Part shown: positions 14,170-16,473 of the stretch, in pieces | Layout: each line of letters begins with the position of its first letter | Position numbering within the stretch: the stretch's first letter is position 1 | Assembly: GCA_004321745.1 (NCBI GenBank) | Contig: SGYO01000007.1 | Coordinates: 1-64,000 of the forward strand | Direction: 5' to 3' | Source: a bacterium | GTDB lineage: Bacteria; Fidelibacterota; Marinisomatia; Marinisomatales; UBA1611 | DNA: 64,000 nt | Notes under the pieces: model-generated | What the model was told of the DNA's origin: nothing | The model's input: only the letters and a program-made list of their open reading frames with translations | The model's database searches: none | Program-made: the position numbers and the translations under genes

Positions 14170-15423
14170 ATGTTATTTAATTTTGATATAATCAATTTAG
14201 TCAGAAATTTTATTATTAAATTGAAAAAATTATTAAAAAGTACCTTAACAGTAATTGTATTTACCTCTCTTTTTATGGCAGAATTAAGTGCCTGTAAAAT
14301 ATGGGCAACAATGTTAAAAAGTGGAAATTCATTTAGCTCCCTAGCTCAAGAGGAACAAGAGCTAATACAATTTCAGATGAGTGCATATTATGATCAAAGC
14401 CAGTATAATGCAAATGGTTGGTCTATCATTCAGTATGAGAAACAGTCTAATGTAATTGAAAATAATATTTATAGATCAGCATACCCTGCAGTTCAAGATT
14501 CAGCAAATTATTGGCAGATAATGAACTCAGTTTTAAATGACTCTTTGCACAACATAGCTGTTGCTCATTTGAGGGCAGCAACCTCAGGAGCTAGTTCAAT
14601 TCAAAATCCTCACCCATGGATTTTTGAAAGTGATAGCGTCTATTCATTCGTTCATAATGGAGGGGCCTCCAAAGATGTTCTCTATGATATAATTACTGAT
14701 TATGGAAACGATGAAAGTTGGTTAATTCAAAATCCTCCCCAAACTTACGGGAACGGTGATTGGCAAGATGAGGGGTGGAACTCAGTGGTCGATTCTGAGC
14801 TAATCATGTTATTAATAATGAAAGAGATTACTGCGTACGGTAGCGTTATTGAAGGTCTCCAGTCTGCTCTCAGTAAAATGTTAAGCACTGGCATTTATCC
14901 TTCTATGTTAAATTTTGTTTTTTCTGATTCTAAATCATTATTCGTCTATGGTGGTAATAGCGGATTAAAGATTATGGAATCAAATAGCTATTATTCAATT
15001 ATGAGTAGTCCGCCTTCAAATCAGCAGTTATATGCTTGGCAACCTATAAATTCGAATGAGCTTAACATAATCAAAGAAAATAGTATTACCAGATACCAAA
15101 CTTTTGCGAGCACTTCGATAGAACAACCAGATGTTATTCTACCTGAATCTGCTAAGTTACATTCTCCTTATCCAAACCCATTTAATGGAAAATTATCAAT
15201 ACCTTTTAATGTAAATATATCTCAGTTACCAAATATTTCAATTTATAACATAAAAGGTAACAGGGTATTTACTAAAAATTTATCTAGAAATGATATTAGT
15301 AGAGGGAAGATTTATTGGAATGTGAATGATAATGAAACACAGAACCCTTCCAGTGGTATTTATATTGTAAAATTACTTTCGAAAACTAATTCAGAGTCAT
15401 CAAAGATAATGTTTATAAAATAA
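14170..15423 (+). CDS. Exported class II glutamine amidotransferase-like (Ntn hydrolase) protein with type IX sorting domain
   Basis: Signal peptide ending ELSA|C42; AHLRAATSGASSIQNPHPWIF...FVHNGG as in YafJ-type GATase II; C-terminal SPYPNPFNGKLSI...SGIYIVKLLSK...SSKIMFIK. Confidence 0.75.
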   Translation: MLFNFDIINLVRNFIIKLKKLLKSTLTVIVFTSLFMAELSACKIWATMLKSGNSFSSLAQEEQELIQFQMSAYYDQSQYNANGWSIIQYEKQSNVIENNIYRSAYPAVQDSANYWQIMNSVLNDSLHNIAVAHLRAATSGASSIQNPHPWIFESDSVYSFVHNGGASKDVLYDIITDYGNDESWLIQNPPQTYGNGDWQDEGWNSVVDSELIMLLIMKEITAYGSVIEGLQSALSKMLSTGIYPSMLNFVFSDSKSLFVYGGNSGLKIMESNSYYSIMSSPPSNQQLYAWQPINSNELNIIKENSITRYQTFASTSIEQPDVILPESAKLHSPYPNPFNGKLSIPFNVNISQLPNISIYNIKGNRVFTKNLSRNDISRGKIYWNVNDNETQNPSSGIYIVKLLSKTNSESSKIMFIK

Positions 15424-15486
15424 AATTTTTTTTTGTAATATCGCCGGCACTGCTTGATTGTCATATAAAAAATAGGAGCTTTAATC

Positions 15487-16473
15487 TTGCCAAAAACAAA
15501 AAAAGAAAAAGTTGATCCAAAACAATTAGAAAAAGAATTAGAGGCTATCTCTAAAGAAGAGGGTGGTCTGGATGTTAAAGAAGATTCTAAAGATAAAGGT
15601 AAAGATAAAGGTAAAGATAAACCTAAATCGAAAAAATCCAGTAAAGTAGCTAGTGGTAGTATAAGTATGTACTTAGCTGAGATCGGCCAGTACAACCCGC
15701 TTCCTCCTGACAGAGAAGTAGAGCTAGCTATCAGAATCCAAAATAACGATGAAGCGGCAATGAAAGAACTTGTTGAAGCTAATTTGCGTTTTGTTGTTTC
15801 TGTAGCAAAGAAATATCAAGGTAATGGTTTATCATTAGCAGATATTATCAATGAAGGTAATTTAGGCTTAATTAAAGCAGCTAAACGTTTTGATCATACT
15901 CGCGGATTTAAATTTATATCATATGCTGTTTGGTGGATACGTCAATCTATACTCCAAGCATTAGCTGAACAGTCTAGATTAATCAGGCTCCCATTAAATC
16001 GTGTTGGTACTATAACAAAAATTACTAGGGCAGCAGAAAAGCTGGAAGCTGAGGTAGAAAGGCAACCTAAAGGTGATGAGATAGGTAACCAGCTAGAGAT
16101 GAGTGGAGATGAGGTTTTGATGGCGATGCAATACTCAAGAAGACACAGCTCTCTTCATTCCCCATTCCAAGATGGTGAAAATAGCAGTCTGCTGGATATC
16201 ATTGAGGACGACCAAGCTGAAGAACCAGAAGCAAACATTATGAGAGAGTCTATGTCCGAAGAGGTCACTGGTGCATTAGAAACTCTATCAGGCAGAGAAC
16301 GTTCTGTTTTAGAAATGTATTTTGGTATCAATCGTGATAGTGCAATGACTCTGAATGAAATTGGTGAAGAATTTGATCTTACTAGAGAGAGGGTAAGACA
16401 GATCAAAGAAAAGGCCATTCAAAGGTTAAGACACAGATCGAGAAGTAAAAGTCTCAGAAGATACCTAGGATAA
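15487..16473 (+). CDS. rpoD: Primary RNA polymerase sigma factor (sigma-70/RpoD type) with Lys-rich N-terminus
   Basis: TTG start; LVEANLRFVVSVAKKYQGNGLSLADIINEGNLGLIKAAKRFDHTRGFKFISYAVWWIRQSI and TLNEIGEEFDLTRERVRQIKEKAIQRLRH. Confidence 0.93.
   Translation: MPKTKKEKVDPKQLEKELEAISKEEGGLDVKEDSKDKGKDKGKDKPKSKKSSKVASGSISMYLAEIGQYNPLPPDREVELAIRIQNNDEAAMKELVEANLRFVVSVAKKYQGNGLSLADIINEGNLGLIKAAKRFDHTRGFKFISYAVWWIRQSILQALAEQSRLIRLPLNRVGTITKITRAAEKLEAEVERQPKGDEIGNQLEMSGDEVLMAMQYSRRHSSLHSPFQDGENSSLLDIIEDDQAEEPEANIMRESMSEEVTGALETLSGRERSVLEMYFGINRDSAMTLNEIGEEFDLTRERVRQIKEKAIQRLRHRSRSKSLRRYLG

Follow-up and report, generated by a model that had tools for sequence, protein, structure and literature searches.

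The window analysed here—a stretch of 64,000 nucleotides of bacterial DNA—carries an open reading frame (ORF) at 14170–15423 that encodes a predicted exported protein with the fold of EgtC/YafJ-type class II glutamine amidotransferases (GATases) and a C-terminal tag for type IX secretion (T9SS). The features of this gene are listed in Table 1. The initial annotation had described a Cys (Cys42) straight after a signal peptide, GATase motifs and a T9SS tag, and inspection of the sequence together with Pfam searches found all of these in place. Both motifs cited there, AHLRAATSGASSIQNPHPWIF and SFVHNGG, occur in the ORF, to which we add a third hallmark, SVVDSEL (mature residues 164–170), absent from that annotation.

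Table 1: Features of the exported GATase-fold gene, in window coordinates.
Feature	Coordinates	Strand	Evidence
Entire 417-aa ORF, coding for the T9SS-tagged exported protein with the EgtC/YafJ-type class II GATase fold	14170..15423	+	ORF call, Pfam
Sec signal peptide with N-terminal extension (41 aa counted from ATG, 24 aa from TTG 14221)	14170..14292	+	Sequence, homologues, family hydrophobic core and −3/−1 residues
Cys42 (TGT), mature residue 1; proposed N-terminal nucleophile	14293..14295	+	Cys/Ser in 64/64 homologues; same alignment position as Cys2 in the Met-Cys relatives of the cytosol
Class II GATase/Ntn hydrolase domain, mature 1–271	14293..15105	+	PF13230, TIGR03442, Foldseek to EgtC/GlmS/PurF
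H-L-R motif, mature 92–94; expected substrate-binding Arg, for the alpha-carboxylate of glutaminyl or gamma-glutamyl substrates	14566..14574	+	HxR family-wide; role inferred from GlmS R73
H-N-G motif, mature 121–123; expected oxyanion hole (Asn, Gly)	14653..14661	+	HNG conserved; matches HNG when aligned to class II GATases of solved structure
D-S-E motif, mature 167–169; expected substrate-binding Asp, for the glutamyl alpha-amino group	14791..14799	+	D and S invariant; aligns to DSE in 3mdn and to TDSE in cytosolic relatives
T9SS type A C-terminal sorting domain	15169..15411	+	PF18962 3e-8, TIGR04183 2.1e-6; SprA and PorU in same genome

The Pfam matches to GATase_4 (PF13230; 3.8e-7, 29.8 bits against a cut-off of 23) and to Por_Secre_tail (PF18962) both exceeded their curated cut-offs, and the best enzyme match of the mature form among NCBIfam models was to EgtC (TIGR03442; 1.1e-8, mature residues 35–266). 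With a signal peptide, a C-terminal sorting domain and T9SS machinery encoded in the genome, the protein has the marks of a T9SS type A substrate; signal peptidase I (SPase I), LspA, SprA and the PorU sortase are all encoded there. An Rfam scan of the window returned nothing.

The signal peptide and its cleavage site were read from the sequence and from comparison with the family. Translated from the ATG, 41 residues precede Cys42 and end in a hydrophobic segment, TLTVIVFTSLFMAELSA. With the in-frame TTG at 14221 as start, the signal peptide would have 24 aa, MKKLLKSTLTVIVFTSLFMAELSA, immediately followed by the Cys, and close homologues start 21 aa ahead of the Cys (21-aa signal peptides); this TTG may be the true start of the ORF.

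AlphaFold models built from three-row alignments were of modest to moderate confidence, with a pLDDT of 57 for the whole mature protein (sorting domain included) and 68 for the domain alone. Searched against the PDB with Foldseek, they matched EgtC, GlmS and PurF at probability 1.00 and E about 1e-7, with no other significant match; for the domain model, each of the top 17 matches was to an enzyme of this type, and the one after them had E = 0.14. TM-scores for these modest-confidence models ran from about 0.4 to 0.66, and the whole-protein model, despite its lower pLDDT, gave higher TM-scores to EgtC than did the domain-only model. From sequence alone, a profile of 38 members reached 1te5 and 3mdn at about 2e-12. 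The GATase II fold, on which the initial annotation had staked its reading, is therefore upheld by models of moderate confidence.

A search across the phylum recovered relatives in 55 of 245 genomes, and a pattern search of a larger genome collection matched 14 further contig stretches, two of which were true relatives. After removal of duplicates, 64 sequences spanned the start of the mature domain and served for counts at +1, the first residue after the predicted signal peptide. That residue was Cys in 57 and Ser in seven, and nothing else, so that the +1 Cys on which the earlier proposal depended is kept among homologues, being swapped only for Ser. Next come Arg or Lys (61 of the 64) and a hydrophobic strand, equally in Cys and Ser forms. 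HxR, HNG and DSE are likewise retained in both forms and are near-invariant even among sequences down to 24–30% identity; across 38 diverse members, H92, R94, G99, H107, P108, H121, G123, W157, D167 and S168 do not vary. Because the Cys/Ser pair at +1 (64/64) goes together with a GATase_4 match in 63 of 64 homologues and a T9SS sorting domain in 61–62, the arrangement is not due to chance. The initial annotation had judged the export of such a domain with a T9SS tag unusual: the combination is real, but it belongs to a phylum-wide family and is no one-off. In one homologue (L048:706-1788), the T9SS sorting domain is replaced by a type I dockerin.

Taken alone, the LSAC preceding and including Cys42 fits a lipobox, as had been pointed out, and the genome has LspA; LSAC is also the lipobox of the P. 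gingivalis glutaminyl cyclase (PMC5837995), which we counted in favour of a lipoprotein. On such a reading, Lgt would acylate Cys42 and LspA would cut before it, leaving a membrane-anchored protein with a blocked thiol, whose GATase fold would be non-catalytic or independent of an N-terminal Cys. The family as a whole disfavours this. The lipobox pattern [LVIM][ASTVIG][GAS]C fits only nine of 56 Cys homologues, Phe, Tyr, Leu, Lys, Asp and His are frequent at −2, and 14 members carry Pro at −1. The seven Ser forms could not be lipidated, yet keep the site and all motifs; the near-universal T9SS sorting domain also counts against a lipoprotein, as does the coincidence of the exported Cys with the catalytic Cys of cytosolic relatives. 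As the family lacks a shared lipobox with an invariant Cys, we rejected cleavage by signal peptidase II and regard a lipoprotein as unlikely.

Residue −1 was Ala in 42 of the 64 homologues, Pro in 14, Gly in six, and Asp and Ser in one each, with Pro at −4 in 30. By the usual rule, Pro at −1, and the Asp found there in one member, make poor SPase I sites. The Pro(−1) subfamily (family f30: L045, L049–L050, L053–L059, L062–L064) is exemplified by PLFP followed by CRMLG. These residues are what might be expected if, at least in the Pro(−1) subfamily, SPase I did not free the nucleophile on its own and a different or additional step was at work, such as self-cleavage of a short propeptide or the action of a different periplasmic peptidase; class II GATases that lose a propeptide are known, B. 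subtilis PurF being one. However, the hydrophobic core runs up to the Cys so closely that no propeptide length is left in any member. Furthermore, Pro also appears to lie at or near −1 in L108 and L112, two T9SS proteins from elsewhere in the window's genome, and could thus be acceptable to the local SPase I; together with the Pro(−1) subfamily, these proteins hint at an enzyme that tolerates Pro at that position. A separate processing step accordingly seems quite improbable to us.

The cytosolic GATase_4 proteins of the phylum start with Met-Cys-Arg/Glu (e.g. MCRFLAYRG, MCELLGLSF), have no signal peptide and carry HxR, HNG and TDSE ordered as in the exported family, with similar spacing. Their Met-Cys start and shared motif order place the exported Cys42 where removal of Met exposes Cys in the cytosolic proteins.

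On a maximum-likelihood tree of the mature domain, built without the +1 column and rooted on the cytosolic relatives, parsimony called for at least six changes between Cys and Ser. Ser codons of both classes are used, AGT/AGC (AGY) and TCA/TCC (TCN), each one base from a Cys codon, which fits separate origins of Ser, and several Cys/Ser sister pairs, including L065/L068 and L074/L076, lie on well-supported branches. Ser is an accepted Ntn nucleophile, as in penicillin G acylase. Judged from these sequences, it is difficult to see why +1 should be restricted to Cys and Ser if the residue did not become an N-terminal nucleophile. The Ser-type members (L046, L051, L068, L070, L071, L073, L076) are all long forms of about 700–870 aa, in which several hundred residues of no known family lie between the GATase and sorting domains.

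Large extra regions separating the GATase domain from the sorting domain, as seen in several members, would suit an exported pseudoenzyme or binding protein that uses the GATase fold to hold a ligand (glutamine or a gamma-glutamyl peptide) or as a structural element, with no catalysis. A pure binder would need no nucleophile-type residue at +1, however, and the strict Cys/Ser at this position, with near-invariant HxR, HNG and DSE, makes a non-catalytic role improbable.

For comparison with other T9SS cargo, we examined 40 stretches of the window's genome (L077–L116), of which 36–37 had a readable signal peptide. Among these, Gln was the commonest residue at +1 and Cys never occurred; the automatic cleavage-site rule misplaced some sites by 1–5 residues and reading by eye gave more Gln at +1, with Cys found by neither approach. 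The +1 Cys thus belongs to the GATase family rather than to T9SS cargo in general. A preference for Gln at +1, the Q-rule, was described by its authors as specific to Bacteroidetes (PMC5837995). The Gln-rich +1 position inferred for the cargo of this genome resembles that rule, which would be wider than Bacteroidetes if the window's genome lies outside Bacteroidota. Its gene content, and the origin of two named homologues, point tentatively to an uncultured marine lineage, perhaps Marinimicrobia.

We consider the protein likely to be a surface or secreted Ntn amidohydrolase of the EgtC/YafJ fold, the nucleophile of which would be exposed by SPase I, tying maturation to export. With a signal peptide at the N-terminus, there can be no free N-terminal nucleophile in the cytosol, and the active form is probably reached only during export. 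Cleavage by SPase I, putatively directly before Cys42, would expose the Cys, the thiol of which could then form the catalytic centre with the freed alpha-amino group. The protein would fold in the periplasm and cross the outer membrane through the T9SS, after which the sorting domain would be removed and the protein attached to the presumed surface location or released. In the active site, Arg94 and Asp167 would hold the glutamyl end of the substrate, while Asn122 and Gly123 would form the oxyanion hole.

The protein most likely hydrolyses a gamma-amide, that of glutamine or of some gamma-glutamyl compound, because it keeps the Arg and Asp with which GlmS-type enzymes hold the glutamyl group; hydrolysis would be likelier than amide transfer, since there is no acceptor (synthase) domain. 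A gamma-glutamyl substrate—with glutamine, gamma-glutamyl peptides and other gamma-glutamyl amides as candidates—is a guess from two conserved residues that we would give about an even chance. We are equally divided over the broadest reading, by which the phylum displays EgtC/GlmS-fold amidohydrolases on its cell surfaces, with SPase I as their obligate activator and the catalytic residue switching repeatedly between Cys and Ser to give thiol and hydroxyl variants.

Among characterised systems, EgtC (TIGR03442; PDB 4zfj/4zfk/4zfl), a gamma-glutamyl amidohydrolase of the ergothioneine pathway, comes closest: it was the top NCBIfam and Foldseek match, shares the fold and the layout of a stand-alone hydrolase, and has an N-terminal Cys (Cys2), HxR, HNG and D(S/T)E in common with the exported protein. 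EgtC is, however, cytosolic and matures by removal of Met only, whereas the protein described here has a signal peptide and a T9SS tag. Membership of the EgtC family itself was rejected (34.7 bits against a cut-off of 218.65), leaving a likeness in fold only. In the window's genome, no EgtB scored over the cut-off and no second GATase_4 protein was found, the other 53 matches being T9SS sorting domains only, which makes participation in ergothioneine synthesis unlikely. YafJ-type class II GATases (PF13230; PDB 1te5, 3mdn) belong to the same domain family, matched over the curated cut-off, but their known members are cytosolic Met-Cys proteins. The glutaminase domains of GlmS and PurF have the same Ntn fold and glutamine-binding motifs; unlike them, the protein here is exported and lacks a synthase or acceptor domain.

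Textbooks treat class II glutamine amidotransferases as enzymes of the cytosol. In Gram-negatives, exported choloylglycine hydrolases and penicillin V acylases are Ntn enzymes in which an N-terminal Cys is freed by removal of the signal peptide. They form a different Ntn family, to which the protein here had no Pfam match, and carry no T9SS tag. Given this precedent, the freeing of an N-terminal nucleophile by signal peptidase would already be known in kind; in the open-access literature, we found no paper stating it for choloylglycine hydrolases or penicillin V acylases. Nor did that literature yield anything linking class II amidotransferases with signal peptides or type IX secretion, which is weak evidence, as subscription papers mostly fall outside its scope. 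What appears to be new is the combination of an export-exposed nucleophile in the class II GATase fold, T9SS export and recurrent exchange of Cys and Ser.

A conserved exported branch would mean that activation of the class II GATase fold can be coupled to export, and would supply uncultured bacteria with a surface enzyme for organic nitrogen in the form of glutamine and gamma-glutamyl compounds. The natural Cys/Ser swaps also offer directly comparable variants of an Ntn nucleophile, and signal-peptide tools that read a +1 Cys as the mark of a lipoprotein may misfile exported Ntn enzymes.

No relatives were found among viral contigs, and plasmids held only distant rhizobial class II amidotransferases at 24–33% identity. 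The gene looks vertically inherited and single-copy. In the window's genus, its neighbours are a divergent sodium:solute symporter gene and an rpoD-type sigma gene. The latter (TTG start, 15487) lies directly downstream on the same strand, about 1.1 kb away from centre to centre, the pair spanning 14170–16473; we claim no functional link between the two. Among the genomes of the same family that were examined, all those with sufficient flanking sequence showed this pairing, as did one from another family of the class.
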